Assembly: GCA_008711295.1 (NCBI GenBank)
Contig: VUYV01000763.1
Location: 16,564 to 80,563 of the forward strand
Direction: 5' to 3'
Source of the DNA: Anarhynchus alexandrinus
Lineage: Eukaryota; Chordata; Aves; Charadriiformes; Charadriidae
DNA length: 64,000 bases
The translations under genes were made by a program, and so were the position numbers. Positions 1 through 24,200 of the stretch are shown here, piece by piece. Each line of letters begins with the position of its first letter. The stretch's first letter is position 1. Below the pieces are notes generated by a model. It made no database searches. It saw only the letters and a program-made list of their open reading frames with translations, and had not been told where the DNA came from.

Positions 1-68
1 AATATTATTTTTAAATAAGATTTGTTTGCCTTCCCCGGGGGGAGCGGGCGCGAGGGGCGGCGGGAGGA
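1..68 (+). promoter_or_regulatory. KLF5L: KLF5L proximal promoter / 5' UTR (partial)
   Basis: The window opens only 68 bases before the start codon, so most of the promoter is outside it. An AT-rich stretch with a TATA-like word (TTAAATAAG, about 11-19) is followed abruptly by GC-rich sequence with a GC box (GGGGCGG, 54-60), the kind of site bound by SP/KLF factors. If the TATA-like word works, the 5' UTR would be only about 25 nt; it may equally be plain 5' UTR of a longer leader. Inference from motifs only. Confidence 0.35.
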
Positions 69-233
69 ATGAGCAGCGGGCTGGTGCTGCGCACCCCGCT
101 CCCCGAGGACGCCTCGGCGTTCACCCCGCTGAAACCCGTCACCATGTCGGGGGAAGCCGCCGAAGACGCCCCCGTCTTTGAGGACATCAAAGCCCCTTCT
201 CGGACCTTGGAAAACCCGCCCGACCTGGCGCAG
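69..233 (+). CDS. KLF5L: KLF5L coding exon 1
   Basis: Encodes residues 1-55 in exactly 55 codons and ends at CAG|GTAAGG, a near-consensus donor, in phase 0. ATG at 69 has G at -3. I chose it over the in-frame ATG at 144 (codon 26) because residues 18-24 (F-T-P-L-K-P-V) lie between the two and match the F-x-x-L-K-P-V of the KLF5 N-terminus. The ATG at 144 has a stronger Kozak context (ACCATG), so an N-terminally shorter isoform is possible. The exon lies in the CpG island and is 18 kb from the next certain exon. Confidence 0.88.
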
Positions 234-3200
234 GTAAGGCGGGGGCCGGCGCTTTGCCCTGGGGCGGCGGGAAGGGGTCAGCTTTGCCCCTTCAGGTGCA
301 CGGAGGCTGCGAATGCCTCCCACAAACGCAAACGTGGTTTTTTTNTTTTCTTTTTTTTTTTTCTTCCCCCTCTTTCTCCGGCTTTTCTTCGAAACGCCCG
401 TTTTGGAGGAAAGCCTGGGTTTTGCTCGCTCCCCGCAATGGGGTCTCGGTCCCTCTCCCCCCACCTCTCCCCAAGCGGGGCCGGCAGGTGAGGGGGCGCC
501 GAGGGTCTCTGCGGCCGCCGCCGGCTCGTTGGGAAAGACGCGGGCAACGGGATCGCCGTGTCTGTGCGTGATGGGGGGGGGGGGGGCGAANGAATGCTCC
601 TTGAAATTCCCCGGTCTTGTCCCCCCCCTCCCTCCCGCCGTGCGCTATGGAGATAAAGACCCGGATAAGCGACTTCGGGGCATTACCTGCCTCTTTTGCT
701 CGCCCACCCCTCTTGCTCGCCCACTCCTGTCCTGGGCCATGGCAGGAGCACGGTCAAGCCCTTCTGCCCGTCCCATGGAGGGCTCCTCACCGGCGTTTTG
801 GGTGATGGACCCCTTGTCCCACCACGAAGAGCCTTCAGCTGCTCTTCCCGGTGGGAAAAGGGGCTGATCCAGACCTGCCCCCACCCCGCTGCCACAGCTT
901 CGTCCCCTTTTTCCCCCCAGGAAGAATGGGGCGAGCTGGGGCACGGGGTGCCCGGTACCGCCGGCGGCTAATGATTAACCCCGCGCCCCACGTCCCCAGC
1001 GCCATTTTGATCGGGGCGGGAGGGCGGCTCCGGCCCCTCGCTCCACGGCCGCCCCGCAGGGACCCCCTCGCCCCGGCTGGGACCCCCGGGAGGGCACCCC
1101 CATGGTGGGGTTGGGGCTGTGTCTCCACGGCCCGCTTCCCCTCTCCCGGCAGCACTGGTGCCCCAAGGGCCTGTTTTGGGGCTCCGTCCTTCCGGGGGAG
1201 GTGGTGAGATGAAGGCAGCGTCTCCATTGCCGTATTTCCATATGATGCCCCGGTGATCCGGCATCCACCAAGGCCACGAGGGGTGGTCATGGATGTGGGG
1301 GTCAAAATGGGGGGAGAGGGCCACGCAGCACCCTCCTCCTTCCTCTACGGTGGTCCCGGCTCGGTGCTTCTCCCCGTAACCCCGTGGCTGACAGAGTCCC
1401 TGCCCCTCTGCGCTGGGTTTGGGTGGGTTATCTGAAGTCGGAGGGTTGGGTGGTGGCTCTTCAGAAAGGTGTGGGTTATCTCCAGGGCCGGTGGCCGGTG
1501 GGAAAGGGTGGCAGCTCTCTGTTTGTTCTGGGGGGAGGGTGAGGTTTGCTTTCTCTCCGCCTTTGTAGCCCCGGCTGCCGGGTGGGATTAGGCAGCGGGG
1601 CTGGTGCTCACCCCACACCTCGGCCATGGCCATGGCCAGCCCCATGCCACCTCTCCTCCTCATGGGGGACATGGGGATGCAGACCCCACCCATGGTTGGA
1701 AACACCTTCACCCCACCACACCACCCTTGCTGCCCTTCAAAGGGAAGAGGGGTTTCTCACCCCGGTTTGGTCCCTGGGGCAATGCCACCCCATGGCTGTT
1801 TTTCTCCGGGGTGGAGGCAGCTGAGGGTGGGCCTTGGGGGGGGTGGCCCACCAGAGATGTCATCCCTTTGCCATAAGACAATCCTGTGTCCCTTTATGGA
1901 CCATGGGGTCCCTGGGATGGCGGCGGGAAAGCTGCGGGGCTGGAGCTGAGCACCAGCTCACCCATGCATCACCCGCTCAGCCCCCAACAGCTGTGGGAGG
2001 ACTTCTTTGCAAACCCACCCAGGGTGAAGCCTTATGGGTGGCAAAACCCCGACAGCCCAGGGCTGGACCCCACATCTCCCGGGGAAGAGTTTTCCGTGTG
2101 TTTGGTCCCCTTTCTCGTTGGCTGTGGTCGTTGTAGAAGAGATGCTGAGGAAGCTGCCACAGCTGGAAGGTGGAAAAGCTGAATGGCTGCAGGTCTGGGA
2201 AAGCCTTCGCTCCGGGAGGGCGTTTATCGGAGCAGTTTGACAAGACTTATGGAAAAGGCTGTGACCTGTCAGAGCTCCAGCACTGGCTATCGCCCACGGG
2301 GCATTTCCCGCTGCTCCAGCTCTCGGGACTTGTGTCTCCCCCATCTCCCGGCAAAGAAAGGAGCAAACTCGCAGCTAATCTCTTTATCTGGCCGGTTGCA
2401 AAGTCCTCCCCAACCCCTTCCACCCCCCCTACTCCTTCCACTCCCTCTACAAATCGCTTTTCAAACAAGAGTGGATGGTGGGAGCTATTTGCCGTGGAAA
2501 ATTTTATTCGATCTGAGTCAGGTGGAAATGGATCCTTTGTGGAGTTTAAGCTTAGTTTTTCCCTTTTCTCTGCCTTTCCAGCCACCCTGCCCCTAATTAA
2601 AAAAACCAACCAAACAAACAAAAAACAAACAAAACAAACAAAAAAGAAAAGAGGCGAGAAAAGGGCTTGTGAGAGAAAAGCACTTTTCCGTTCTGATTTG
2701 AGTCACATCGGCCAGAAACAGAATTTCCCCCTTCAAATCTCAGCAGGCCGCTGCTAGAAGGAAGCTAAAAAATAATAATAAATGAAACCAAAAGCACGGC
2801 ATGTTCGGGGAAGGGAAACATTTCAGAAGAAGAGGAGGAGACATTCCCTTTACATGGCTGTAGGCACCCCCCGATGAGCAAAGGACCGGGGGGACCACTG
2901 GGCCTCATCTGCTGCTCCCACCTTTCCTGCACTGTGGTCTCCAGGTCTGACCGGCCAAAGCAGCTCCCAGGTGGTGGTTGTTACCTGGGGGTGACCTGGG
3001 GCTGGGGAGCCCTCCTGGGATCATCTGCTGCTTGTCAGATGGGTGACTGTGTCCCTCTGGGCTGGGCTTGACCTCATAGTAGATGAGCTACCCCACTGCC
3101 AAGTCATCTAAGCCACCCCATCACTCCTGAGCCTCCTGGAGCCACATGTGGCTTCATGCCATGGTCTCCCTTGGGTGTAAGTGTGGTCCTCAGTGGTGCA

Positions 3201-6200
3201 AGCCCGATTCCTGCCCTCTTGTGAGAGCTGTCCCTGGGCTGTGGTGATAGAAAGTGAGATGGTGAGAACAGACCCAGGTTTCCACAGTCCTGGAGCTGTT
3301 TCTAGAAGGAAGGTTGCCAGCATGGTTGGGAAGTAGATGGCACTTCCCCTGCTCCCTGCCCAACATGTGCAGGACAGGAGCTGGCTCCTAATGCTCCTAG
3401 AGTTGTGAGGAGCACAAGGTGCTGGTGAGGTGGAAGTGGTGGCCTACACTCGTCTCCATGGCTGGGTTGGCTAAATTAAGGGGGGGGTGGGGGTGGGGGT
3501 GGGGAATGGGGGCTATCGGAGGTGTTGGCCCTACCATTGCCTGCTGGGTGTAATCGCGTGTCCTCAAGGATTCGGGAAAGCCGGTGCCTATCTCAACGGG
3601 TGATACCAGCCATGAATTCAGAGCTGCTGTCTGATGTTGGAAGCTCAGTTGGGTTTGCAGCAGCCTTGAGTGAGGTCAGGACCTGGTGAAGAAGCTGCTG
3701 GGAAGAGAGATGGACAAACCCCACAGCCTGTCTCCTGGTTTAACCCCTTACCTAGCTGTAAGGGCAGTTGTGTTGAGGCTGGTGAGCACCCAGTGGGAAC
3801 AGAGGCTGTCGTGGGTGACGAGGAAGATCCTGGTGAGTGCGGCTGGAGGTAGCCCCAAGCCAGCTCGTTCTTCATTGCCTCCTTTTCCTTGGGTGGGCTA
3901 TGATGCTGCAAGCTGAGAAAGGAGAGAAAACGGCTCCTCTTGTGTCCAGTAAGCCCAGCTCCTGCCCCACAGGCAGTTGCTCAACCCTGTGCTTGGTGCA
4001 CCTCCCTTCTGCCCAGCCCGAGGGCTGGGTGGGGGGCTCGCATAGGAAGAAAACAGCTCCAGCATCTGGGAGGTGCTTGAACAGATTAGATGGTATCAGG
4101 ATGGTGCTGTTCCCCGAGAACTTTTCCTGGAGCTTCAGATCCTCCGTACCAAAACCGACATTTCCCAGACCCTTTCAATGGAGTGGACGTAGGTGCCATG
4201 GTGTTCCTCTGACTTTATTCTGGCAGGGATTTTGCTTCTGGTATCACAGGAGAAGCCGGGCCAAGCAATTTGAGGTGTGCTCCAGCTTTCTGGACAATGC
4301 TGGAACTGTTTCAATCCTGCTCTGTCCCTGCGGCGTCCTGAGTGCTGTGTCCTGCATCTCATGGGTCTGAGGCCCTTTGGCCACACCCCTGTCATGAATG
4401 TGGCTGTGCTGGGGTGGTGACGAGATGGTGGCTCTCTGTTGGACCAGGGATGGGCTTTCCTGCTCCCTGGTGCTCCAGCATCTTGCACAGCCCAGTTGGA
4501 ACCAGGGTGATGGTCTTGCTCATCAGACGTGGTTTGTATCGGGGCCAGGGAGGAGTCCTGCTCCACTTTATTTATCAGTAGAGATGTACAAGTCCACAGC
4601 ACAGCTGTCAAGGGGTGATTCATTTCCTTGGGCTGTCAGGAGTTGCACGCAATGAAGGAATTCAGCTTTTCTGTGGGGAAAAGGGAGATGGCAGCTTTGG
4701 AGTGTTGCTCTGGGCCTGTAATGAGATGCTGACAGCTCGTTGTGGCTGGGGATAGCTGAACCCGGGCATCTTCCTGCAGCTTAATATCCCTCCTTGGGTG
4801 CTCAGAGGGGACTGAAAATATTGCGTCCTCTCCTGGGGTCCTCCTTGTGCCCAGCACGCTCAGGAGAATGCGGCCACGCTGCTGAACGTGGCCCCGGGTA
4901 TGGGGACACCACAGACACGGGTTCAACGGTGTAGTGCCGGTTTTTGAGGCCGTGCCCGTGTTTGAGGACAGACCTTGAGCTCACGGTGTTGCAAGGTGGA
5001 GGTGTTACCCTGGACGGTGCTGGCGCAAGGGGACGACGCAGACTCTGCGCTGCCATGTGTGGGATGAGCTGCGATTCACAACACTGGTGGGAGCCGCGTG
5101 CCACCTTCGGTCCTCACCCATCCTTCGCTCCGCCAGCTGAGCAGGGAGCGGAGCTCCGGCCTCTGCCAGGATCCCACATTTACAACTGTGCAAACAGGCG
5201 TGGAAACGGAGCGGGCTGGCGCGATCTGCCGAGGATTCGGTGACTCAGTCCCTTCTTCCGCTTTCCGACCTGCTCGGTCCACGTAATGGTGCTTTTGTGG
5301 GCAGTCTGAAGTCGTGGCTCTTCCCTTCCCTCTTGGGTGAGCGGGAGGCTCTGCCCTCTGGGATCCTCCTGGCTTTGCGGAAGGGTTCAAAAACGTCCAT
5401 GCGTTCCCACAGAAGCGTGCAAAATTCATTTTCGAAGTGCGCCAGCGAGGCCTGAGCGGGCTCGAGGGGCGTGCGGAAACAGATTGGCGACACGGAGGTG
5501 TCACGTCAAAGGCCGGGCGAGGAGGAACGGGCTCGCTTCACCCCTCTCAGCACAAGTCAAGATGGTGGGTTGGCAGCCGGTGCGGCTGAGCCCTTGGTGG
5601 CCTCTGGCTAGAGGGATCTCACGCGGGAGGGATCCTTTCAGGCTGTTTTGCTTTGGGGTCAGCCGGAGCCCGATGCTTCCAGGGCCAACCCGCAGGTTTG
5701 CAAGTCTGATGGGCTTTCTGTCTGGCAGGTGTCTGCAGGGCCACGGGAAACTAAGCTAGAGTCCCCAGAAAGGGTGAATGTGTCCCTCTACTCTTGCGGG
5801 AAGACCCTCAGGGACAGTCCCCAGGCAGGACGTCTGCCCACCGCAGCCTTGTGTTGGTGGGGGGGCTCATTGTAGGTCAGATCCTGTTGTGGGAGCAGGT
5901 CCAAAGTCAGCGGGGAGCTCGCTACGGCTCAGCAGGCTTTGGATAAAACCAGTGTTACCGGTGAGGCAAAGACCGGGAAATTTGGGGCATCTCAGCCACT
6001 GTGTTTGTTATTTTATTTTATTTTTTTTTATTTTAATTTTTTTAATCCCCCAAACCCACAGACTTCCCCGTGCGAGCGCGGATGCGCACGCAAGCGCTGC
6101 TGGAAGCAGACGGAGGTGTAGGATGAAACGACTTGGCCGAACTTTGAGCTCGTCGGAGCACAATGGCTTTGTCCCGGTGGTACAAAGGCCGATTGTTCTG

Positions 6201-9200
6201 CTTGGGGGAAGTTTGGCTCGGCAAGGTGGGGAGCGAGAGAAAGGGACCGCGCCGAGAAAGACAAAGATTACAGGTGTGCTGTTCCTCATCCTCCTGCGCA
6301 GCCCTCGCTGGAACCTGTTTTCCACTCGCCGCCATGGGAGGGGATGCAAATTAGCTAGAAAACCATTTTGGTTTGGTGTTTTTTTTTTTTTTTTTNTTGG
6401 AACGCTGAAAAGGCAGGTATTTAAGGGAGGAAACGAGCAGGGGACTCCGACTCCATAATACATGCAACGGATTTCCCTTTATCGCTCTTCCTGAACGGTC
6501 TGTGGGAAGCAAACACAGTCATCTGAAATTACTCACGAAGGTCTAAGGTAGCACATTTCTGGCCGGTGCATCATCAACTGTGAATTTTCCCCTCTCAAAC
6601 CTGTTTGGTCAGCTACCTACGCTATTCTGTTCTCCTTCCCTGGTCCAGTGAGTTCTTTTATCTAACCCATCCACTGCAAATAATCACACTTACGACCGTC
6701 TTGTTAGCTGAGCCCCTTGATTAGAATATTTGCTTTTCTTGTGCTCCATTGGTGAATTACATGAGTCACAGGGTACAGCTGGTGTTTGGGGATTGGATAA
6801 CTAATGTTTACAATTCAGATGTTCTCAGAACTTGAGCTAGCACGAAAACTCTCAAAAAAACCCCCATGGGCTGTTTACCACATCAAAGAGGTTCAGCCCC
6901 TTCCAAGCTCCGACTGAAACTCAAACAAAGAATCTTTCATTAAGTTCAGAAATGCTCGGAGAATTCTTTGAAAATTATTATTTTCAAATGTTCTTTTTTT
7001 TTTTTTTTTTTTAATGTGATGGGGACCTTCAAGTTTCCACCAAGGACAGGATTTGCAAGTATTAAAATGCATTTAATGACCTTGCTCTTTGTAGTATTTC
7101 CAGTACAAGCAAGAGAAGAGAATGGCAAGAAATTGGTCCCAGCATAGCTGGTCTGAAAACGCCGGTACTTATCACTTGCAGGAGAAAATAATATTATCCA
7201 TGGGTTATCACGCCTATCGCATCTAAGGCAATTTGTTTCATGAATCTGAACCCGTCCCTGGAGAGGGCAGAGGGATTGTGGGTACCTTCTCACCAGCCAA
7301 TTCAGCCCATTTTGGTGCTGCCTGCTGCAACATCGTCATTTTCCATTTTGCTGCTCCTCAAGGACAGTCTAGGGAGCTGAGCCCAGGGGTGGCTGAACAT
7401 ATTCAACTGAAAATCCTTCTCAGGAATAGAAGGTTTGGTGGTGTTCTCAAAAAAACGTGGAAATGACCCAATTTTGTTAAATTGAACGGAAAAATTGGGG
7501 CATCTCCCCTTCCCGCCCGATCGTTCAAAATGCTGTTGTTTTAGGACGTAATCTTTCATTCTGAGCAACTTTCAATATCTGGTGTTTTTGTGGTTCTGCG
7601 CCGTGCTTTTGGGAGATCTCAAAATCATTAGCTTGGCGGACTGACATCACCTCTGGGACACAATGAGTGTCACAGCCCTCGTGTTTCCCAGGGGTTGGCA
7701 AGCCCCAGGCTCCAAAATGCTCTGGCTGGAGCTTCTCCAGGGCTTGGTGCCTTCTCCAGGGGAACTGTCAATTGCCGGTTATCGGTGTGTGCCATCATCG
7801 GTTGCTCTTAATTAACAGCAATTGGCAATTCATCTCTATACAGGGAAAAAGTGGAAAGAGAGGGTTTAAGCTGAGGGAACGGATCTTGAGGAAACTCTTT
7901 GAGGCTTTCTGGTCTCCGGACCTGCTCCAACGTCCCCCTCGGTCCCTGATTTGGGCCGTATCTTCTTGGGTTTGTACCTCGCCGGCTGCTGTGCAAGCTT
8001 GCAAGAAAGAAGTTGTCCCGAAGACCTACTCGTGCAGACACAATGTTTTCGCCCGCCTTAGGGTTTGGTTTGTTTTGCTTTGCTAACTGGTTTGGCGAGG
8101 AAGTTGAGGGCCACAAGGACGGTGGGATTTGCTGTCCGCACGTGAAACCTGACCTTGCTTTTCCCAGACGTGCACGGGGTGTTGGGTCTGCCTTGCGTGT
8201 TGTAGGGGGAAGAACAGGCTTTTTTGGCCTGTTTTATCGCTCGCCGAATGCCAGGAGGACTTCACAAGCCCCAGCAAGCAGCGGATGACTCACTCCGCCT
8301 CTGTCAGACCCTGCCCTGGGAATGAGCTGCTTTTCTTCCGATCGGAGGAGGTGAGGTGATGAGTGTGAGCTTTTAGATGGTTTCAGTGAGGTGGAATGAA
8401 TCCCACCTACAATCCAGCTGGGGAAGCTCCTTATGAGCTCTCTTATGAGCCTCTCCCATGTCACACTCGGTTCAGGACCCACGGCACCTAACCAGAGGGG
8501 AGTTGGAAGGCTCAAGAACAAGCCCAGCAATAGCTAGAAATGGGTGGATAAAATTGTCCAGGTCATCCTGGGAACGGTGACATCTGAGAGCCTCCATCTT
8601 CTCAGGTTCAGGGGAGAGGCTGTGCTGGAGCAGAGGCTGCAACCGAGAAGGAGATATGGAGCTGCAGGTGGGCCTGCTTCTAGTTGATGGTACCAGCAGG
8701 GGCTGCATGGCTACCCAAATTCAACTTTTTATTGTATGTGTGCATAAACCGGGGGAACGCTTGAGTTCCTGCATGCTTTGGCTGGGGCTGAAGTAGCTCC
8801 AAGCCTCCTGGTCTTCCAGGAGTTGAAATAACACTGGATCGTTTCATCTTGCCAGACGAACCACCCAAATGGCCATACCAGTTCACACCAAAAGTCTACT
8901 CAGCTCAGCCTCCTGCCTCCAACAGTGGGTGCCCACTTAGCTTGACAGAGAACCTCCAGTTGGCTTTGACGGGCTTGACCTCAGCCTTCGCTAAGCAAGA
9001 GCAGCTCAGAAATAGAAAGCTGTGTATGAAGGCACGACTCCCTTAAGCCCTCATGTCCTCCTCTTCCACACTTGGAGCTGCTCTCCTGCCCGGACAGAGC
9101 AGGGAGCAATGGGTGAGGACAGACAGACACCTGCCTTCAGGCTCCATCCAGTGCTGAGGTTGTGCGTGGTAGTTCTGCAAAAGGGGAAACCAGTGCGGAG

Positions 9201-12200
9201 CTGCTCTAATGTCAACCTGGGACCCCCCGCCCTCGTCTAGACCCGCCTAAGGCCAGATGGGCTGAATGGCCACCGTGTTCAGTGAGGCCTAGAGATGGCG
9301 TAGCTGGGCCAGAGCCTTCCCCAAGCTCAGTGTCTCCAAGGTCTACCCTGTGAGTTATTTTTCAGTCCATTTATGGCTCTGGTTTTGGAAAGGTTTCTGC
9401 TTGCTCTCCTAAAGCCCGCTGCAGCCTGGCTGCTCCAAGCTGCTCCTCTTCCAGGCACTTGACCTTGGAGTTGGATGAGGGTGTTTCTCCTGGTTTCCTT
9501 GGCCTTTGGGATTGCTGACTGTAGTGGCACGATTTCTGTGATAAATAACCGAGGTAGATTGCCTTTGAGTGAGTCTTTATCAGTTGTCAGAGGAAAGGAA
9601 TAGCAAACAGAGTCAGCAAGTCTGCTGGAAATGTTGCTGCCTACCGGCTCAGCCAGAGGCCAGCCAACCTCCCAGCTGCCCACATCTGCCTTGGTGGTGA
9701 CTCTTGGCCTCAAGGAAATTCCTTGTTTCTCAGAGGTGGTAGTTACCTTGGGTCGTTCAAACGCAAGGGCAGGAAAGAGTATGGCAATAACCCTCCAGAG
9801 CAGCTCCTGGGCCATCCATGATCTCCTGGCAGAAACCTGGAGAAAGGGTTTATCTTTGTGGCCTTGTCCTGCTCCAGGAGTCGCTCTTGCAAGTGGAAAG
9901 GTGTGAAAGCCGGTGGGATAGATCATCTCTGGCAGTCTTCTCTGTGGGCTCCAGAGAGAGCTTGCACAGAGACTTCAGCTTACGAGCCCGCTTTCCAGGT
10001 GGCCAAAGCTGGTGAAGATGAATCTCGCCCCACTGCATGCCATGCAAACACCGCTGAGTGCTTCAAGGGCAGCACTGGTTTCTTGGAGTTGCTCCTGACC
10101 TCTTTGAGATAGCGCAAGCAGAGCAGTCCACCTTCTGCCGCCCAGCACCCACCTAGACAAGCGCAGAATTCGGCTCTGCTGCCCGCGACGGCGCTTTGTT
10201 ATTTACCCCAGCGAAACACTTGGCCCTGTGTGTACTCGAAAGGAAGAGTCCCGGGGGTTTCTTTGCTAATCCCGTTTTTGCAGAGAGTTCCAGAAGACTT
10301 GAGGAACAAACAGAAAATAACGTCGATCGAGGTCAATATCAAAACCAAATGATCAGAGAAACAAATATTTACTCAGGTCAATATTTAACTAGCAGACAAT
10401 AAATGCTGATATTGAACCAAATCTGTATATAAATACGGTCTATTTATAACGTGTGCCTTTAAAGGGGCACTGCCAGGTACTTGCCATGGCTTTTGATTGA
10501 TGATTATCCTCCCCATTGTTTGCTGATTCCCTTGGAGGCCGGAGTTTCATGCAGGTGCACGTATGAGAAAAAAAGGCAGTACTGTGTAATCCCAGGACCC
10601 GGACAACCGGCGCAACCGTTGTCCCACGCACGCCTGTGCCGGAGAAGTGTCCCTCACCCCAAGGAGGGGACATCCCCCCTGCCTTGCACCTGGAGCGGGG
10701 GTCCTGCCGTTCCCCCATCCCTTGAACCCTCCCCACCTCGCAGGGTTTGTGCCACTGGTTGACCGTCACGGGCGAAGCACCCCTCTCCCGAAATGCTCTT
10801 TGCGTCGGGGACCAGTGCAGCGTGGTGGCTGGGGCTAGCTGTGAGCGGGAGCCAGAGACCCAGCTGGGATGGGGGGCAGCGGGCTCGATGCCCCCCAGCA
10901 TCGCGGAGAAGGATGGGGAGGGGACACTGCGGCCCAGCAGGGGCTAGCGCAGGGCTGGGAGCTGCCATGAACTGGAGAAACTTCTCCCCCCTTGGCCTCC
11001 CCGAGCCCTTTCCCCCCCCCTCAACCGCTCCCTCTGCCAACTTTACAAGCTCATTGCCTGTTTAGCAAACATTGATTTCTCTCCTTGTTCTCTGCTGCTG
11101 CCCGTGTGGTGACAACATCTGATGTTTCTATGGCGGTTTGTTATTTATCAACTTCAGATTAGAAAGCATTTAATCATGGGAAAGACACGTCCCGCCTCCT
11201 GCCTCGGCAGCCTTGTGCTCTTCTGACGATGCTCGTGGTTGGTCGCTGGCAAAACGGCACGGTTGGCTCCAGCGCCGTGTCTTTCTGCGTCCTCCCAAGA
11301 AACGTTTGTCTCGGACTCTGCGCGTGTCCTGATAACACCTCACTCTGCCTTTCATCTGAACAAGGGATAGAGGTCTCCAAGGCAGGAGGCTCCTGCAGGA
11401 TTTATGAAGGTTGGCAGATGGTGGAAGGGAGACTCGTGTCAGTGCCTATTAGCCACCGGAGAATCCACTCTGGGGAGAGCTGGGGGAAGCAGGGCTTCGT
11501 TGGCGGCTTTCTTCAACGAGCAACCCCAGGGATGGGGGTTTGATGGTTTCACAGTGCTGGGTGTTCCCCACCATGCAGCTCTTTCAGAGGCTGCCGAGGT
11601 TATCTTGTCCTCTAGGGAATTTCGGTCGCCAGGTCCCGGGGTCGGATGTGCCAGTGCTGATTGTAACATGGTCCTGCTGGTCCAGTGACACAAACTGGTG
11701 TCCAGTGGCCTTCTCTGGAGTGGACAAAGTGTTCGTTCTAACCCCTTTGCTTGTTTTTTGGTGGTTTTTTTTTCTTCGCTTTCTTTTCTCTGGCAAGTTG
11801 AAAAGACTCTCCTCCGTGGTCAGAAATAGCTGCTATGACTTTGAGGGGAAAATGCCCCAAGAGTTCAGCGCTTTTATTGTATGAAAGGCTGTTCTTACCA
11901 ACTGTCCCTTCCTGGCCAAACNCGACTGTCCATTCCTGGCCAAACCAAAGATCCCAGTTTGGACACCTCTTGTCCCGGTTTGACACTTCTAAACTCACAG
12001 AAGTTTTGTCGGTGTCTGCGTTGCCTGTATTTCCCCGTTGCTCACTTTTTGCCTGAGCTACTGACCTCGGACGCCCATGACGGCCGCTGGAGCCCTTGTC
12101 GATGCGGATGGTGGAGTCTGGGGTGTGCCCTCCTCCACACCTTGAATCTCATCTTCATCTTTGGTGATTGCAATGATGGCATTGCTAGTGACCATAGGGG

Positions 12201-15200
12201 ACACTGGGCCACTGAACCCACTGAAGACCTAGCGGCTCTTCAGCTAGAAGGCCCCGGAGGCTTTCTCCATCCAGTCATGGTGGGTATCTCTTGCAGTATT
12301 GAGATGAACCAAGCTCCCTGGCTATGTCATAAGTTCACTCCTTCTCAAAAAGGCAAGAAAATGGTTAATTCCGTGCCTGTGGCTGGCAGACAGAGAGGAA
12401 GGGATGGGCTGATCGTTCCAGGTCATTGCTGTCTGATGTGAGCCCACCGCAGTGTCCTCAGCTGCCCTCTCCGGAGTCGCCCCAGGCAGGGCTGCAGCCT
12501 GCTGCCAGGACCCGCTTGGGGCTGGCGGAGGAGTCTGCAGAGACCCAGTGTCTACGGGGCTTCCTCCTGGTGGGGCCCGCTTTGCCCTCAATTGCTTCCT
12601 TTGTATTTGTGCTGCTTACCATGGCAGGTCCTGAATGCAGAGGGCTGGCAGGGCAGAGGGTTTTGTTACTCTTCTGGTGTGGTTGACGCCAAAAATGAGG
12701 GATCCAGCAGCTGGACCACCCCTTGTGGGCTCAAGCATTACCTGCGAAGGAGCTTGGCTGAAGTACGCAGGTGCTTCTGAAGCTGTTTCTGGCAGCTGAT
12801 GGGGGCGATGGCACACAGCTTTCAACTCCAAAACCCTTGTAGCTCTGACCTGGAGATTTCATGTTTAAGCATCTCCTCATGCTTCCAGGCATGAAGACCA
12901 CATGGAGTCCAGTGGCTCTCCAGGGATGGCAGCTCTCAGCATCCCCAGCCTGTTTGGTACCCATCCTCTCCAGTCCATGTGGCTCTGTGGTCTATCGTGG
13001 CCTTGCAAGGAACATCCTCCATTTGGATGCGACTCCCAGAATATGAACAACCCCAAAAATGGGGAAACTGCGTCCATTGAGTTGGTTTTGCTGGCTTTCT
13101 GTGAGGGAGAGGGAAGCCTGGGCTGGTTTCTAACCCTTGCTGCTCTGACTGACCAGCCTGACAATTTGTGCGTGACCCCAAACTGGGAGGGCGAGAAAAG
13201 GCTTTACCCCAATCTTGTTGAACAGGAGAAATGGCAGAGGCTAGGGTGAAACCTGGTGGTTGTGGAGGAGAAAATGGGCACACTGGAAGCGAGCAGGCAG
13301 CAGCAGCTGCAGGAGAAGGACGGGGAACGAGAACGGAGCACAGGCTGATGCTGAACCCACAGAAGGCAGATAAATACTGCTTTGGGTTTTGGAGATAACT
13401 CTTCTTTTTAAACTTACTTGGTGCTGGAGGACTGCAGCCTATTTTGGGCACTGACCTTGGAGAAACGATCCAGGTCTGGGTGAGAGATCTGAGAAGAGCC
13501 CTCAGCCCTCTGTGGAAAGCTGGTGGGAATCGAGGCGGGAGAAGAGAGGCCTGCAGGACATTTGCAAGAACGCTGTAGTGCATATGGGGAATGAAAAAGG
13601 AGATTTAAGTCCCGGCAAAGTCTTTCCACCTTGGAGATTGCTAAGCACAGGAATGGGTTAGCTGAATGGTTAGCTGAAGGCAAACTGCAGAGAAGGTCCC
13701 TGGGGCGGCCAAGGTGGTTGGGGTACCTCCTCCTGTGCCTGAGGGGGTGAGATTCCCTCAGGTTCTCTGTAGGAGCCTGGCAGTGGTGTGATGCTGAGAG
13801 CACCACCTCAGAGGGGCTGGATCTAGCTTGTGGTGCTGCCACACTTCTGCCAGGAATCACGGTCCGTCTGGGCTCTGGTGGCATGGCTGAGGCTCTTCCT
13901 GGGGAAAGCTTCTCCTAGCCTTGCTCTTGCAGATGCCATGGCCTATGGCTCGGGGAGCTTGTTAGATGTTGGGCAGAGGAGAGGAGTTGTGCCTGAGGCC
14001 CTGGGCATGCAGCTGAGCATGGTGTGTCCTGGCTACCACAGCACCTCGTGGTGGGTGTCCATTCTGGGGTGCCCCAGGTCTGCACCAAAAAAACCCTTCG
14101 TGCATGACTTGAGTGAGTTGAGTGTTGTGGGCTCAGCCCTTGATTGCCTGCGCTGGTGGTTTCCAGCCTGTTCCCAGGACACAGCATGAATGTTTCTGCC
14201 TACCCTAAGGTAGCTTTTGTAGACGGGAACCCCATGGGAACCAGGAGAACTTACTGGTTTGACTGGGCTGGAAATCTCTGGAGGTCTTTGCGCCATGGCT
14301 CAAAGCCTCCTCTGGAAAGCTCTGTGTTTCTTTCCCCGTGAGAAGCCCAGAGTTCACCAAACGTGCAGCCAGGCCGAGCTGCTGCCCGGGTTCTCCGAGA
14401 TGCTGTCCTCCTTGGGCGGGCTCCAAAGGCCGCGGCAGATCCCGCTCTGCCTCTCGGTTAGGATTAAGACAAAAAAACAGAGACTGGCTGTGGGAGATGG
14501 GAACTGAGCCCCTGCTCATCCCCGTGGTGGGCTGCTCCGTCCCTCCTCCCACTCCGCTCTGGGACAGGAGATGTTGAACAGGAAAGAAAGACCAAAAAAA
14601 AAAAAATTAAAATAAAATCCCTGTTAGTGAACAGAGAGAAGGTGATGTCAAAGCATGGCCGGGTGGCAGGAGGCACTGGCGATGGCGGTGGGGACCTGTC
14701 TGCTGACAGGGTGGGCAGATCAAGGTCCTGGGGGCTATGAGGGGCTGGGAAGAGGGATGGGGGGTCATGCCTGTCATGGCTGGGGGTGGTTGAGGAGGCC
14801 GGTGGGGGGGTGGTCGCCCCACTAACTCAGCCCTGTCTTCCCCACAGCTGCACCCCATGAGGATGGAACAGCGGATGCCGCCGCTTATTCTCGAGGTGAG
14901 GCGCTTTCCTCATCCCTCCCTCCGCATGCTTCTGTCCCCGCTGGTGAGAGGTACCGCTACACCCCTGAGAGACTGAGCTGGGACTGCCCCCCACCCAGCC
15001 AGACCCAGTGCAGGCCACCCAGATCCACTGGAGAGGACATGGTGGCACCCCCGCTCCCTCCTTCCACCCTCGCTGCCATCTGGGCATTGTTCCTCCTGCT
15101 CATGGTGTCTCCATCTGTGCAAGCCACCGGGGCACCTGCCTATGTCCTCCATGTCCCCGTTAACTGGGTCCCCACCAACTGTGAAAGGAGCTGTGAGCAG

Positions 15201-18200
15201 AAGGAGCCAGGTAGGGACACCTGCATTCAGGACACTTGAGTTGAATCCCACCCAGATGTGTCAGCACTTAGTCATCCCGGTTGTGCTGACTGTGGGCTGA
15301 AGAGTTGGTTTTGGATCGTGAGACCCCACTTTGGAGTACTGCCTCCAGCTCTGGGGCCGCCAACATCAGAAGGACATGGACCTGTTGGAGCAGGTCCAGA
15401 GGAGGTCACGGAGATGCTGCGAGGGCTGGAGCCCCTCTGCTGGGAGGACAGGCTGGGAGAGTTGGGGGCGTTCAGCCTGGAGAAGAGAAGGCTTCGGGCA
15501 GACCTTAAAGCCCCTTCCAGTGCCTAAAGGGGCTCCAGGAGAGCTGGGGAGGAACTCTGGATCAGGGAGAGGAGCCATGGGATGAGGGGGAACGGTTTTA
15601 CACTGAAAGAGGGGAGATTGAGATTAGATATAAGGAAGAAATTCTTCACTCTGAGGGTGGTGAGCCCCTGGCACAGGTTGCCCAGAGAAGCTGTGGCTGC
15701 CCCATCCCTGGAGGTGTTCAAGGCCAGGTTGGACGGGGCTTGGAGCAACCTGGGCTGGTGGGAGGTGTCCCTGCCCAGGGCAAGGGGGTTGGAACGAGGT
15801 GATCTTTAAGGCCCCTTCCAACCCGAACTGTTCCATGATTCTATGATAGAGCGTTGGCTAAGAGGTGCTCAGGGAAATGGTATTAGATGTCAGCACCCAG
15901 CATGAGCAGTGCTGGAGCAGACTAGGGTTGCTAGGCGTTTCTGGGCCACAAACAAGCAATAAGCTCCCCTTTCTCCTCCTTGGAAGGACGCTAGGTCCCT
16001 CGGGGTGGTGTGGGACCTGTGACGCAATCAGCAGCATTATGACACTCTGGATTCCAGTGGGGTGAGACCCTCACCGTCCCGGTCCTGCACGCACCGGTGG
16101 GGCTGCAGCCATGGACAGGGCTCTTATCCATTCCTGCCCGTTGAAAGCCCATCACTTTTGGTCTGCTGACCACCTGCCCCTTAACACCCTCTTTCTCCAG
16201 GACCCTGGGGCTGCTCTGGGTCAGAAGTGGATTTATCAGACTTTATCACACTTTTGTCTGCAGGTAGGGGTGGTTGTGAGAGAAAAGGAGGCTGAGAGAC
16301 ACCGAAGGGGGAGGGGGGCAGGCAGCAGAGAGGCAGACTCTGGCTGAGAATGCAGGTTTTGGGGCTGAAATTAGGGCCCTCCACGCCTTTAATATACCTT
16401 CCCGGTCACCTGCCATATAAGGACCCACTGGAGTTGTGGGGTGGAGACCTTCCCTTGGGAACTGAAGGTGAGAAAGTGAAATGCCAGAGATAAGGGAAGT
16501 GTGGAAGTGAAAAGGCATCCGACACCTTCCCCCTGCCCCCACTCCTGGCAAGTGGGTCATTTCATTGCTCAGGTATGTCCGGCATTCGGCGCCTCTGGTC
16601 CTGCCTCCAGCAAGCTGACTCCCAAGGGTAACCGTGAAATCCCAGCTCCAGCGCTTTGCCGTGGTTCTCCCATGGGCAGGAACCCCAGGTAGATGGGAGC
16701 AGAGAGCAAACCAGGGCTTTGGACCAGTCTGCGAGGACTGAGGGTCTCCGATGCCCTTCCCTGCCTCCCGCTGATGCCGTAGCTTTTAGGGTACACCTGA
16801 GTGAGGGGTCTCCTCACCGCAGCATGACCAGGGGGGTGCTGCTGGAGGCGGTTAGGTGAGGATGTGGCACGAAGTGAGCTTGCAGTGCCAACACGCAGCT
16901 TCCCTTCACCAGGGCAGGGACTTTTCAGAGCACAGCGTCGAAAACATGGTCCCGGTGCAGTGTGCTCGGTCCCAGTGCGGCGGAGCGCTTCCCACGTCCA
17001 GCTGCTCGGAGCTTCTCCCCGTGTGGAAGAGGGTGTATCTGTGGCATGTACCCGTATTTGGGTGGAAGCCAGCTTACCCATGCGTTGCCAGTATGGCTCG
17101 CGGAGGTGCAAAGGCTCTTTGAATTAGCCAGAAGCGCAGGTGATGTGTTTCGCTGGAAAGGGCGAGGAAATCTCTTGGGTCCCGTCCAGCTTTGTGAAGA
17201 GCAATGAAGTTGCAGCAGGGATGACTTTGGCCCATTGCACTCCGGTGACATAGTTCAGAGCTGTAAAACCCGCGGCTCGAGCGCGCAGGGTGTGGGGTGA
17301 GATCAGCTTGCTCTCCTGAAGTGCGCTGTAGGCTCTGCCAGGGAAACCCGGTGGTTTTGCCAGCTCCTCTACATATGAATGAGTCTACGAGGGCTTTGCA
17401 ATGAGCTTGACACATGGATAACCACATAATTAAAGGCTGTAGCTTTACAGAAGAGCATTAGCGCTGGTATCTTTAACCACAAAGAGCAGAACTTGAGTCA
17501 TCAAATGCCAGGGGATGAATTTCCTAGCGGATTGCTCCATCAGGTTGCTGAATTGTTGGGCCTGGATCCAGTGGGATGCCGCATCAGACGTGAACCAGGA
17601 GGGGAAGACACCTGGCAAGCGGTGATCGTCTGAGCTAGAGGTCCTGTTAGCTTGGAGGACCCGGGCTTGTCGAAACAGCTCTACGAAACTAGAACGAAAG
17701 CAAAGGTTAGGTGAGGGCTGAGACGCTTTACCAAGACAAGGCAGTAATGGTACGCCTGGCAGTTTCCATTTTAGCCTCGCAGTCCACTGAATTAGTGGCA
17801 ACGTAAATTAGATTTCCTGGACTATAGCCCAAATTATTCTCAATGCATTAAAGATATCGTCCTAGAATATTCTCAGTTAATTGAGGATATTGTCCTAGAA
17901 TAAACCACAACACACCTCAGGCTGTTGAGTTTAAAGGAGACCGGAGTCAGCACGTCGAAGGTGGGCTGCGGACCCAACATGCCCAAAGCGTGAGGTTGAC
18001 TGGAGCAGAGTTTCTGAATTCATCCTATTTCTAGTGCTAAATTCTCTTGTTTGTGTGACCAAAGCTTCGTACCTAAAGCTCGGCTCTTCTTTATCAGGCT
18101 GTATTTCGCCCGTAACTGCATCCCCTGCCTAGCTTGCCCTTTGTTATCAGCGCAGATAGGTAGGAGGGAAGTGGGACAGAGGACAGTGATTCACTCCTGG

Positions 18201-21200
18201 GGAGTTTGTGGCTGAGTCAGAGACTGAAGCTAAACCACTGCAGCCTGTGACTCCTGGGCCGTTCTTGCTGCTCTTGCGATTTCCTGCTAGCTTAAGTACT
18301 CGTTGGGCATTGGACTCCCACCACCAGTGTGTCAAGGTCACCCTTCACAAGTTCTCTTGTCTGTATTTTTTGCCACAGGGACGGTCCGAAATGGATAAGT
18401 ACCTTTCCAACGAGGTGCCACCCATCCCAATGATACCAGACAAGAAGTACCGCCGGGAGAGCGCCTCAGTGGTGGATGAGTTCTTCTCCACAGAGAAGCC
18501 CACTTCTACTCCGTACAGCGTGAACATCAACGTGATTCTGCCAGACACGACGCACCTCCGCACTGGACTTTACCGGCCACCCAAACCCATGACGCCATTC
18601 CCACAGATCAAAACGGAGCCTGGCACCAGCTTCGCCCAGCCCTGCTCTTCTCCCTCTGGCTCCACACAGACCCTGCCCGACTTCACCAGTGTCTTCAGCA
18701 TGCCCCAGTCAGTGGCAGTGAACAACATCTTCATTAAGCAGGAGATGCCCTCTGAGATCCCCTTATCTGCCAATCCACAGCAACCCCAGCTTTACCAGAT
18801 GCCTCTTGGCAACGGGAGCGCTGACATTACCACTCTGACATCCTCCTCCAACAGCACCACAGCCATCAACAGTCTCAGTGGTGTCACCATGTCCACAGGT
18901 AACACCATGTCCAGTGTGGTCCACAGACCTGTCCAGCCAGGAGGGCCAGTTAAGCAGTACCCACATGTCTCCCAAGGACAGGGAAACTTCAACATCTCAG
19001 GGCAGTTCTACCCTGCTCCAGGGGTGAACCTGCCCCCTTCACCCCCCAACTCGCAGCCTGGCAGCCCAGAAAATCAACCCGAGCTCATCAACACCATCTC
19101 TCCCCCACCATCCTATGAAGCCACTTTTGGACTGAAGTTGGTCCAGTCATCGCAGGTCCCCCCAGTCCCCAATGGCCTTGGGACCCTCTCCCAAGGGCAC
19201 ATTGTCATGCAGCCCCCCAAATACAACAGACGCAACAACCCTGAGCTGGAGAAGAGGAGAATCCACCACTGCGATTACCCAGGTATGCTCAGGGTTGATG
19301 TACCGGGGAGGGTGTAGGCGGTGTCTCTTCTTGACACACTGAGGCTGGGGGCCAACCTTTGGGTTGAATCCAAAATCACTTGGTCTGCATGACGAAGGGA
19401 GCTATGGAGCTGGGTGGGGAGCCCCAGGGAAGTGGGGTTCCTACCACCACCAAGGGAGCAGAAGCGGTTGATCCTGCCTGCGCTGGCTGATGCCTTTTTT
19501 TCTCCCCTTCGCACTCTGGCGAAAGCCCGCCTGACTCTGAGAGGCAGAGAGCTCCTGCAAAGCGCAGGGGTGCTCCTGGAAATCTGCTGCCTTAGCTGCC
19601 TGTTTCGCTCTGGTCTTGCCTAACCCCGAGCGGCCACGTGCTCTCCGCAGGTGAAGCCATCCTGGCTTTCTCACTGACCTTCCCTTTCCCACTCTCCCAT
19701 AATGGGTGGCAAACCATCAAGTGAATTCCATAAGCAGCCTTCAGCAGGGAAGTGGTGGAGTCGCCGTCCCTGGAAGTATTTAAAAGACGGGCAGATGTGG
19801 TGCTGAGGGACACGGTTTAGTGGTGGGTTTGGCAGCATTAGGTTGATGGTTGGACTTGATGATCTTAAAGGTCCCTTCCAACCTAGACAAATCTATGATT
19901 CTACGGTCTTTCTCTGTAGCCCAAATTCTCTTCTTCCAAAGAGGCAATGAGCTGAATATCTCTGTGTCGTATCCTTCAGTGTACTGCATCAGAATAGTGT
20001 GGAAAGGCACTTCAGGGCAACGATCAGCCCAGAGCTGAAGCTGTTGTGTGCCATGAGCGTGTCCATGAGCACGGACATCTCCTCCGCCTTGGCAGGAGGA
20101 GATCTCACAGGGTTTCCTGCACCGTGTACAGAGAGCTTGTGGGACCCACAGCTGCAAACCCTCATTCATGCCGCACAGGAGAGAAGCAACCATGTCCCTA
20201 GCGAGAAACCCCGGTGAAACCAGCGTGAGGGCTTGAAAATCATGACTCCTCGTGCAGGGACACGCACCTCCCACTTCCTGGGCCGAGCCCCAGCCATCGA
20301 GCTGTTGGGGATTAGCAAACACTTTTCCCATGGGGGTGTGTGTGTGTGACCTGAGGAAAGTCATTTCACAACTGCCTCCTGCAAGATTTATGTGCTCCTT
20401 CCGTGGCATGAGCGTGGCCGGAGTAGGTCAGCCCAGAGGCCCGTCTAGCCCAGATCCTGTCTCCAGCAGTGACCCGAGCATGTGTATAAGAATAGGACAT
20501 GTTTAGAGAGATCTTTCTGTGCTTACACCTTCCCACCCTCTGGCAACCTGCAGCCAGATGAGGGACTTTCTGCGCCAGAAGCTGCACCCACGTTCTTGTG
20601 GTTAACGGCTTGTGGTGAATTTTTTTACCTTCTGCTGGTCACGGTGGGAGACAGATTAAGGGTGTCAGTGGACCGCCGCTCTGAGACAGACCCCTCCGCT
20701 CATGTCAGAACGGGTCAGAGCGAGAGCCTCATCCTGTAGGATGCGTTACCAAGGCAAAACTCGCCTGTTTTCAGCCGGATTTTGGCCTGCATAGGAAGGC
20801 AGGGACGCATCTGCGGTGTTAAAAAAACCCCCACAACCTGCGCTGAATAAACACACCGGGTGGCTCGATAGCGTGTACGTGCAGAGGCAGAGGAGGGCTT
20901 CTTCTAATCCTTCACACTGAGGTTCAGCTAGAGGTGAAACCGGTCAGGACTGATGGCGGGGGCAGCAGGTCTTACCGCCGCGGTCTGCGTGAGGAAGCGA
21001 CAAGGAGGCATGCCGAATTCGCGCCGGGAACTGGATGAACAGGGGAGACCTGTTTGCAAAGCCCCCATCCAGGTTTCCAGGTGGTGGCCCCAGCACTTTT
21101 TTCCTCTGCGCGCTCACGGGGAAATGAAGCTCAGCCATGCTCTGCTCTCTGGGCTGCTCCCTCCGGGTTTGGAAACTGCTCCGGGTTCTCACCTGGCTTT

Positions 21201-24200
21201 GTTTCCATGCCCAGCGGGGAGACAGTCCTTGGTCTCACGCATACTCATCTCTCTCCCAAGTGTGAGGGACCTCCGAGGCTTCAGAGCATCAGAAGCACAA
21301 CTGAACTGGGTCACCAACCCTTATCCCTCCTACCACGGGGAGGGGAACGGCAGCCAGCTGCTCCCGCGCCTCCCGAGCAGGACGGGACGGAGAGCTGATC
21401 TCCTGCGAGAGGCTTCTTTAGGTGGTGCGGAAACACCGGGATGAAAAATTATGACCATGTTGCTTATGCAGGTCATAAAAATGCAAATTCATATTTTAAT
21501 ATACTCGCCAAAACACAATGAAGCAGGGCCATAAAGGCAGCAGGAGAAGCTTTTCTAAGCTTTATCTAACTGAAACGAGGAACTAGCAAACGAGCCACTT
21601 TGCGACGCCCGTTGTCGAAGCTTTTGCCAAAGTCACGGCGTTTCTGTTAAGAGCCTTTCTTTGATTCCCCAACATAAGGTTGACAACGAACAATTCTATG
21701 ATTAAACCTGTTGTTGCTGATCTTCTAAAAAAAAACCCAACCAAACCACCTCCCCACCGGCTTTATGCTGGATCGTGAAAGCCAGTCTGCGGCTCCGCAG
21801 CGTACCTGGCGTTTCCTGCTTCCTGGAACATTTTCACCACATCTGCCGGGGCTGGGACGATTACAAAAGACATCTTCCCTCCAGCCTTGCGGTAGCGATA
21901 TCAGTTACGTCTGGAATCCAGAAAAGACAATTGGCAGCACAAAGCCAGCAGCTAACGGTGGTGAATTTAATGATTTCATCCTGCCTGGAAGACGGGGTTG
22001 AAGAAGGGGGGATTGGAGAGTCTGTGCCTCATTCTTCCCCCGTCCCCGCAACGTAATTCCAGGCACAATGCCCATAGAATCATAGAATGGTTTAGGTTGG
22101 AAAGGACCTTGAAGATCATCGAGTTCCAACCCCCCTGCCATAGGCAGGGACACCTCCCACCAGACCAGGCTGCCCAAGGCCACGTCCAGCCTTGAACACC
22201 TCCAGGGATGGGGCCTCAACAACCTCTCAACAACCATGGGTGTCAGGATTGTGTGGCAGTAGGTGGAGTGTTGTAAAGGTCTGTCTGTCTGTCTTGGAGA
22301 ACAAATGCTCTTTAGTTACGGCTGAAACAAAACGGGTATAGCCAGGCTTAGAGTGCTCTTCAGGCCCACTCTGTCCCTAACCTCAGATATAAATGTTTCT
22401 GGATTTGTTTGAGCAAGGGCCCCCTTCTCACAGGGAAGTTGTGACTTTTCTGGTTTTTTGGGTTTTTTTTGCAGGTTGCTCCAAAGTTTATACCAAGAGC
22501 TCCCACCTGAAGGCACATCAGAGGACTCACACAGGTAAGAGCGCCACACCACGGGGAAACTCTGCCCGCCTACGCTTCGTACGCCGTGCCTCTTCGTGGC
22601 GGCGATAACGTTCGCTGAGTTGATTACCGTAATCTAGGGTGGTCATTGGGGTAAGGAGCACAGTGAAGTCTATTGATATTAAAGTTAAAAAAAAGTCCAA
22701 TGGTTGCACTGGTTTATAGCGCCTGTACACTGCTGCGTGCGCTTGCTTGCCTTCTGGAGGGATGGTCTAGAATTTAGGAGAACTCTTGGAGGCTCTCGGG
22801 TCGATAGATTGGGAGGAGGAGATGCTTCCAAAACCTCCATCACTCTGAGCTCTTCCTTTGAGATCTCCCAAATCCTAGCCAGGTCTGATCCTGCTGAGCC
22901 TATGGAAAGGTTGGTTAAAGGCATGTGGTGCATATATATGACCTCTGAGGAGACAAGGGCTGTCTCTTTTGTGGTTCCCAAGGAGAGGAAGGAACCCCTC
23001 GTATCTCCTTGTGTACCAGCCACACAGACCGCTCGCGTCCAGTGCTTGTCCCCTGAGCATCTCCGGTGGTGTGTTGTTGGAGCAGCCAAACAGACGTACA
23101 GAAGGGCTCCAAACAGACGTGCAGAAGGTCTGTGCCCAAAGGCAAAGGTGCTGTGGGCTGCCCGTGCGGGTGTCAAATGGGTCACGAGCACAGAGGAGCT
23201 CCCACCACAACCAGCTTCCCGGGGTAGACCTATCCCAGTGCCACTTGTGCATTCAAGCACAGGTCTTCTCATTAAGGCATTTATTATACCTGAAACTTTA
23301 TCAGATCCCCAGGTAGTCCAGGAACCATCAGTGCCCTCATAAATCTCTTTTATAGAAGGGCTGATCTTTACTGAAAGCAATTAAGCTGGCCCAGAGTTCA
23401 CTTTTCTTTTTTATTAACAACGAACAAACCCCATCCTGCGGCTGGGAATCAGCTCTCGCACTTGGCTCCGTTCCGTTTTCGTCTTATCAGCCCTTCGAAC
23501 AAGCCAGCAAAGAATTTTTCTTTGTGCGTGAGGTACAATATTTTTTTGGCAGTGCCTGGGTAGGAGGGGGCTGGAGAACAACATGGAAGGGGTGGAAGAA
23601 AGGAACAGGAAGGACATTGTCCCGGCTCCGAGAGCTGGGTGGTGATAAGCCTTTGTCACCACAGCAAACTGTATTCAGGGATACGCTGGGGCTCTCGCGT
23701 TAAAATTAAATATCTCTTTTCCCCTTCCGTTCAGAGCACGGGTCTTAGCTCTGTGCCCAGAGCGGCGACCCGTCTGAGACAGGCACCGTCCTCACAAGTC
23801 ACAATTTAAAGATGTATCCAGGCAGACCTGGGTGTTTGTTGAACCCAATAAAACGCAGCCTATTTCCCAGTAACTGGGCTGGAAATCCGAGTGCGTTTGC
23901 CTCCTTCCACTTCACCGGCTGTAAGAGGGAAGGGCGGAGAGAGGCGAAGGAGGACGTGACCTGTGTAGGCAAGAAAACCGGTGGTGTTGTGGAGCGGGCA
24001 GAAAGAAGGGAATCCCAAACAGAGAGACATGCGTAGACAGGCTCAGGCTGTCTGCATCCATGATTTGAAGCCTTGCGTTTGGCTTTTGAGGCTTCAGCCT
24101 CGCTAAGCACAGCAATGGCAGGGCCCGTCCCAGCTCCTGCCAGCTAAGTAGTTCTCAGCCTGGAGAAGAGAAGGCTCTGAGGAGACCTTATTGCAGCCTT

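Follow-up and report, generated by a model that had tools for sequence, protein, structure and literature searches.

We propose that a 48-nt segment in the first intron of KLF5L, at positions 14848-14895 of a 64,000-nucleotide stretch of the Anarhynchus alexandrinus genome (hereafter the window), is a real, optional coding exon of that gene, a reading in which related proteins at the same junction give us high confidence. The segment is on the forward strand and would be read in phase 0-0 as LHPMRMEQRMPPLILE. The coding exons that surround it lie on the same strand, at 69-233 (exon 1; 55 residues, ending in phase 0 at the donor CAG/GTAAGG, with 73 or more tblastn matches at E≤0.01), 18379-19282 (exon 2; beginning GRSEMDKYL and ending in phase 1), 22475-22534 (exon 3; the first zinc finger part) and 26647-26825 (exon 4; zinc fingers and the stop codon TAG). 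When joined, they encode a complete protein, of 435 residues if the 48-nt segment is omitted and of 451 if it is included. Exon 2 also contains an internal donor, CAG/GTAACA at 18898/18899, which coincides with the point from which the chicken X7 and pheasant X5 models pass to exon 3, losing the PPSPP and PPPSY segments.

The segment reads CTG CAC CCC ATG AGG ATG GAA CAG CGG ATG CCG CCG CTT ATT CTC GAG; its phase-0 frame is free of stop codons, its length is a multiple of three, and the frame fits both neighbouring exons. Of the remaining frames, one is interrupted by a stop codon and one, though open, does not fit the phase of the neighbours. Upstream, the branch-site motif CACTAAC (14820-14826) places the branch A at 14825, 22 nt from the last intron base, and is followed by a pyrimidine tract and acceptor (CCCCACAG, 14827-14847), after which the exon begins with CTG; an extra AG occurs at 14829-14830, between the branch site and the acceptor. 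The donor, GAG/GTGAGG, follows at 14896-14901. Consensus splice sites thus flank the exon on both sides: a vertebrate weight matrix gives 9.9 bits for the acceptor and 10.2 bits for the donor, and the same matrix gives 10.3 bits for the exon 2 acceptor and 11.5 bits for the exon 1 donor. In all of these particulars, the length of 48 nt, the open phase-0 frame, the acceptor, the donor and CACTAAC with its A at 14825, the original prediction was exact. A duck gene model, P0004, reads PTN at the branch-site codons (...LPTNPALSVPQ, compared with RPTNSALSSPQ in the window), and its upstream residues are consistent with a conserved branch site (CCNACNAAY) and pyrimidine tract.

Several features of the surrounding intron were also considered. 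The region 14640-15060 matches itself alone in the genome, in a search that skips very common words, and a repeat origin for the exon was rejected for this single-copy sequence; at 15320-15500, beginning about 430 bases downstream of the exon, is what we take to be CR1-like repeat sequence. Two Rfam matches both fell far under the gathering score and a structured RNA was rejected, and a bacterial promoter and terminator scan of 14000-15000 is uninformative for bird DNA. The 150 nt that precede the exon are rich in GGTGG and GGG, at levels equalled in 2.1% and 0.7% of 720 intron windows, respectively; this density of splicing-factor motifs was picked after looking and is a hint only. An open frame in another phase runs from 14826 to 15239, through the exon and into a signal-peptide-like stretch (TLAAIWALFLLLMVSPSVQA), probably by chance.

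The splice grammar of 14848-14895 is unusual yet inconclusive alone, because two decoys in intron 1 share it. This intron holds five acceptor/donor pairs that score at least as high at both sites, of which three keep the frame and are free of stops, namely 14848-14895 and the decoys at 296-487 and 8168-8350. There are zero in-frame open pairs at these scores on the reverse strand of the window. Twenty control stretches of 10 kb from the same genome, whose GC content of 0.33-0.51 is lower than the 0.55 found here, held 12 pairs per 400,000 bases (both strands), with 0 in-frame and open. Markov copies of intron 1 (n=60) had a mean of 0.017 in-frame pairs versus 3 observed, and none of the 60 combined an in-frame pair with a branch motif; CACTAAC itself occurs in 99,103 copies on the two strands of the genome.

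The decisive evidence for the predicted exon is, in our judgement, homology. A protein search with exon 2 identified 729 proteins at E≤0.001, and the best 120 of the 729 were examined; region searches with turtle and caecilian proteins had 101 and 79 candidates, of which 8 and 20, respectively, reached E≤0.001; seven proteins in each of these two sets carry the cassette, and one protein was added. Among the resulting 121 KLF5 or KLF5-like proteins (the best 120 of 729, plus the one added), 14 carry the cassette. They comprise nine birds (P0004 duck, P0005 grouse, P0086 chicken, P0088 pheasant, P0010 crow, P0013 canary, P0052 flycatcher, P0012 blue tit and P0121 budgerigar), one bird-like assembled contig (P0022), two turtles (P0015 and P0021), echidna (P0033) and a caecilian (P0037); nearly all are gene models, and none comes from Anarhynchus alexandrinus. 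The cassette lies between exon 1 (...DLAQ) and exon 2 ([AG]RSEMDKYL), directly before the exon 2 residues, and in 12 of the 14 it is preceded by exon 1 sequence ending AQ or TQ. Its length is 15 residues in grouse (LHPMRMEQRMPLTLE), chicken, pheasant, duck, the turtles (LTPLRMEQRMQLTME), echidna (LDPVRMDHRLQLAME) and caecilian (LNPVRMDHRLLLPLE), and 16 in the window, crow (LHPMRMDQRMPPLILE), canary, flycatcher, blue tit and budgerigar. Since all 14 of the proteins have a cassette of 15 or 16 residues, the frame is kept. The isoform X1 records from Centrocercus (P0005), Corvus (P0010), Mauremys (P0015) and Tachyglossus (P0033), gene models that their sources call KLF5, share the peptide family, the junction and the frame with the segment described here. 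An alternative 16-residue cassette at this junction had been predicted from the window alone, and both the cassette and the conservation of its frame find support at the protein level in birds, turtles, echidna and caecilian.

Comparison of the DNA with these proteins leads to the same place. When ten-residue cores, taken from the start of the turtle, caecilian, echidna and grouse cassettes, were slid along the window, 14848 ranked first of 127,942 six-frame positions for all four, with scores of 41, 32, 30 and 54 against runners-up of 27, 25, 23 and 23, a lead of 7 to 31 points. The proteins in hand were also compared with window positions 1-18378 by tblastn (E≤0.01), which gave a total of 96 matches, in exon 1, 14848-14895, 10187-10337 and 4286-4429. 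Ten of them fall at 14848-14895 and derive from ten bird or bird-like cassette records out of the 14 cassette proteins. The segment match of the two turtles, echidna and caecilian does not reach E 0.01 in tblastn, and these four non-bird cassettes have their first rank at 14848 in the sliding comparison only. Neither decoy, 296-487 or 8168-8350, has a match at E≤0.01 among the proteins in hand. The matches at 4286-4429, on the minus strand and from three frog or frog-like proteins (E 0.003-0.009), were taken as chance.

The cassette is a short arginine- and methionine-containing segment with the consensus L-x-P-[MLV]-R-M-[ED]-[QH]-R-[ML]-...-E. Across 11 aligned proteins L1, P3, R5, M6 and R9 never change, and neither do a later L and the final E; P0004, P0012 and P0121, whose other parts differ, were omitted from this alignment. 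Identity to the window is 14/15 in grouse and 15/16 in crow, canary and budgerigar, and it falls to 10/15 and 11/15 in the turtles, 8/15 in caecilian and 7/15 in echidna. Exon 2, at 69-80 of 90 in turtles, caecilian and echidna, is more highly conserved than the cassette; the caecilian values (8/15 versus 71/90) illustrate the faster divergence of the latter. Relative to exon 1 the picture depends on the lineage: the cassette is better conserved in birds (14/15 versus 43/55 in grouse), about equally conserved in turtles, and less well conserved in echidna (7/15 versus 35/55) and caecilian (8/15 versus 38/55). Conservation in related species is thus found at the level of protein. The squamate, frog, salamander, lungfish and ray-finned fish records among the best 120 of 729 have no cassette, although isoforms that carry it may be hidden in these groups, because each 90% identity cluster is represented by a single member.

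Inclusion of the exon is probably optional, judging from the models available. Exon 1 is joined straight to exon 2 in five bird models (P0001, P0003, P0006, P0011 and P0017), three of which are named isoform X2 and one isoform 2-T2; since others include the cassette, both forms have been modelled. Inclusion is further represented by the intron-free P0022, a 1,668-base contig whose source label, lgn, we take to denote contigs assembled from raw reads. Its single reading frame takes in exon 1, the cassette and exons 2 and 3, and continues beyond the last of these. Because it lacks introns although intron 1 spans 18 kb in this bird, P0022 is best explained as spliced, partly processed RNA or cDNA; a partly processed gene copy is a possible alternative.

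Were the exon instead constitutive, it would nearly always be included and the skipping records would be incomplete models. The grouse protein P0005, which represents the largest cluster (428 member sequences), carries the cassette, as does canary P0013, which is itself named isoform X2. The members of the P0005 cluster are not individually visible, and the five bird models skip the cassette cleanly, most of them under isoform names; we therefore consider constitutive use unlikely.

Another reading is that the segment serves mainly as an alternative first coding exon, with transcription starting in intron 1 and giving KLF5L without the 55 residues of exon 1. This earlier suggestion has weak support: in-frame ATGs are present within the exon at 14857, 14863 and 14875, the second of them in good context (A at -3, G at +4), and in two models, duck P0004 and blue tit P0012, the cassette follows a different 5′ sequence. 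The upstream part of P0012 matches 10187-10337 on the forward strand (E 5e-7 and 1e-6), an intron 1 stretch that, tentatively, the blue tit model splices onto the 48 nt as an alternative first exon. That match, however, spans two frames, and the donor there, GAG/GTCAAT, looks poor; P0004 simply continues from intron sequence into the exon, as a faulty model might; and exon 1 sequence precedes the cassette in 12 of the 14 proteins. Because the match changes frame and its donor seems poor, use mainly as a first exon seems to us improbable. The stretch at 10187-10337 is single copy, P0012 is its sole tblastn matcher (two matches), and an AT-rich segment follows it; it may be a conserved regulatory element or a second promoter.

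That 14848-14895 is a chance pseudo-exon, an exon-like intronic stretch that is never used, might be argued from the two further in-frame pairs in intron 1 that match its splice scores and from the completeness of KLF5L without it, but homology makes this very unlikely, since records from birds, turtles, echidna and caecilian have a matching peptide at exactly this junction and neither decoy is matched by a protein at E≤0.01.

The gene that carries this exon groups, by its exon 2 sequence, with KLF5L of other birds and apart from a second gene on another contig of the same genome (C140:1514445-1515314), which we take, on the basis of mammalian sequence, to be KLF5 proper. The two share an overall plan and differ in sequence: exon 2 of the second gene begins TRCEMEKYL and is 49% identical to that of KLF5L. 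In an exon 2 tree of 28 rows, whose deep forks are weak, the window gene falls with four bird rows (99/99), and over 282 columns its exon 2 is 98% identical to that of a gull; in a different part of the tree, the C140 copy joins three cartilaginous fish rows (100/99) on a long branch. The marsupial records P0094, P0095 and P0104 are without the MDKYL segment, and the two of them included in the tree share a long branch (0.71). The 29.7 kb fetched around the C140 gene, of which 1,164 bases are N, contain no outstanding cassette match, the best scores of 25-28 being comparable to window noise of 23-27; the best echidna score there, 28, is antisense and lies 2 below that of the true site (30). 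Exon 1 of the C140 gene was not located in these 29.7 kb. Reading the C140 gene as KLF5 makes mammalian KLF5 paralogous to the window gene. The contrast originally drawn with mammalian KLF5, as a gene of four coding exons and no such cassette, hence compares paralogues, and the echidna record P0033, which groups loosely with the window gene, has the cassette.

Cartilaginous fish records (P0096, P0099, P0100 and P0101, with P0097, P0106 and P0108 similar) also have an in-frame insert just before EMDKYL, after exon 1-like sequence, which differs from the cassette in being about 33 residues long and unrelated in sequence (ANIFLGEDTIK...). Among the matches listed for window positions 1-30000, none is convincing for this insert (best E 0.099, outside intron 1) or for an insert in Lerista. 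We speculate that the exon 1/exon 2 junction of KLF5 and KLF5L is an old switch point, at which an exon of 15-16 residues dating from the tetrapod ancestor and the unrelated insert of cartilaginous fish would each modulate the N-terminal region next to EMDKYL, with inclusion regulated by tissue and possibly tied to a second promoter in intron 1 that gives KLF5L without exon 1. The cartilaginous fish records may not be KLF5L, because the tree groups them with the C140 KLF5 copy; this placement weakens the idea, which we consider improbable.

For the optional exon itself, the simplest scheme is that the spliceosome would include the 48 nt in some transcripts, yielding 451 residues, and skip them in others, yielding 435. 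Inclusion would insert 16 residues in the N-terminal half of the protein, directly before the conserved EMDKYL segment, where they would probably add or alter a protein-binding motif and leave the zinc fingers untouched. A motif that would change the protein contacts of the N-terminal half is the most economical idea. AlphaFold prediction on the 11-row alignment gave a mean pLDDT of 40.1, with very low confidence in the cassette region, too poor to show function. A weak helix at P0005 residues 69-80, starting at the last two cassette residues, was not used, and a MAPK docking motif was dropped because the pattern does not fit.

KLF5L seems to be little studied. In the accessible portion of a survey of chicken KLF genes, 14 genes are reported, with KLF5 on chromosome 1 only and KLF5L absent (PMC11394431), and a match for "KLF5L" in the accessible portion of PMC2817890 is a misreading of Klf5-loxP. 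We found no description of the 48-nt exon of KLF5L in literature titles or abstracts. The exon is already contained in automatic gene models. The four-exon picture derived from mammalian KLF5 is not transferable to KLF5L, and with a conserved optional exon, constructs or antibodies built on one isoform may miss the other.
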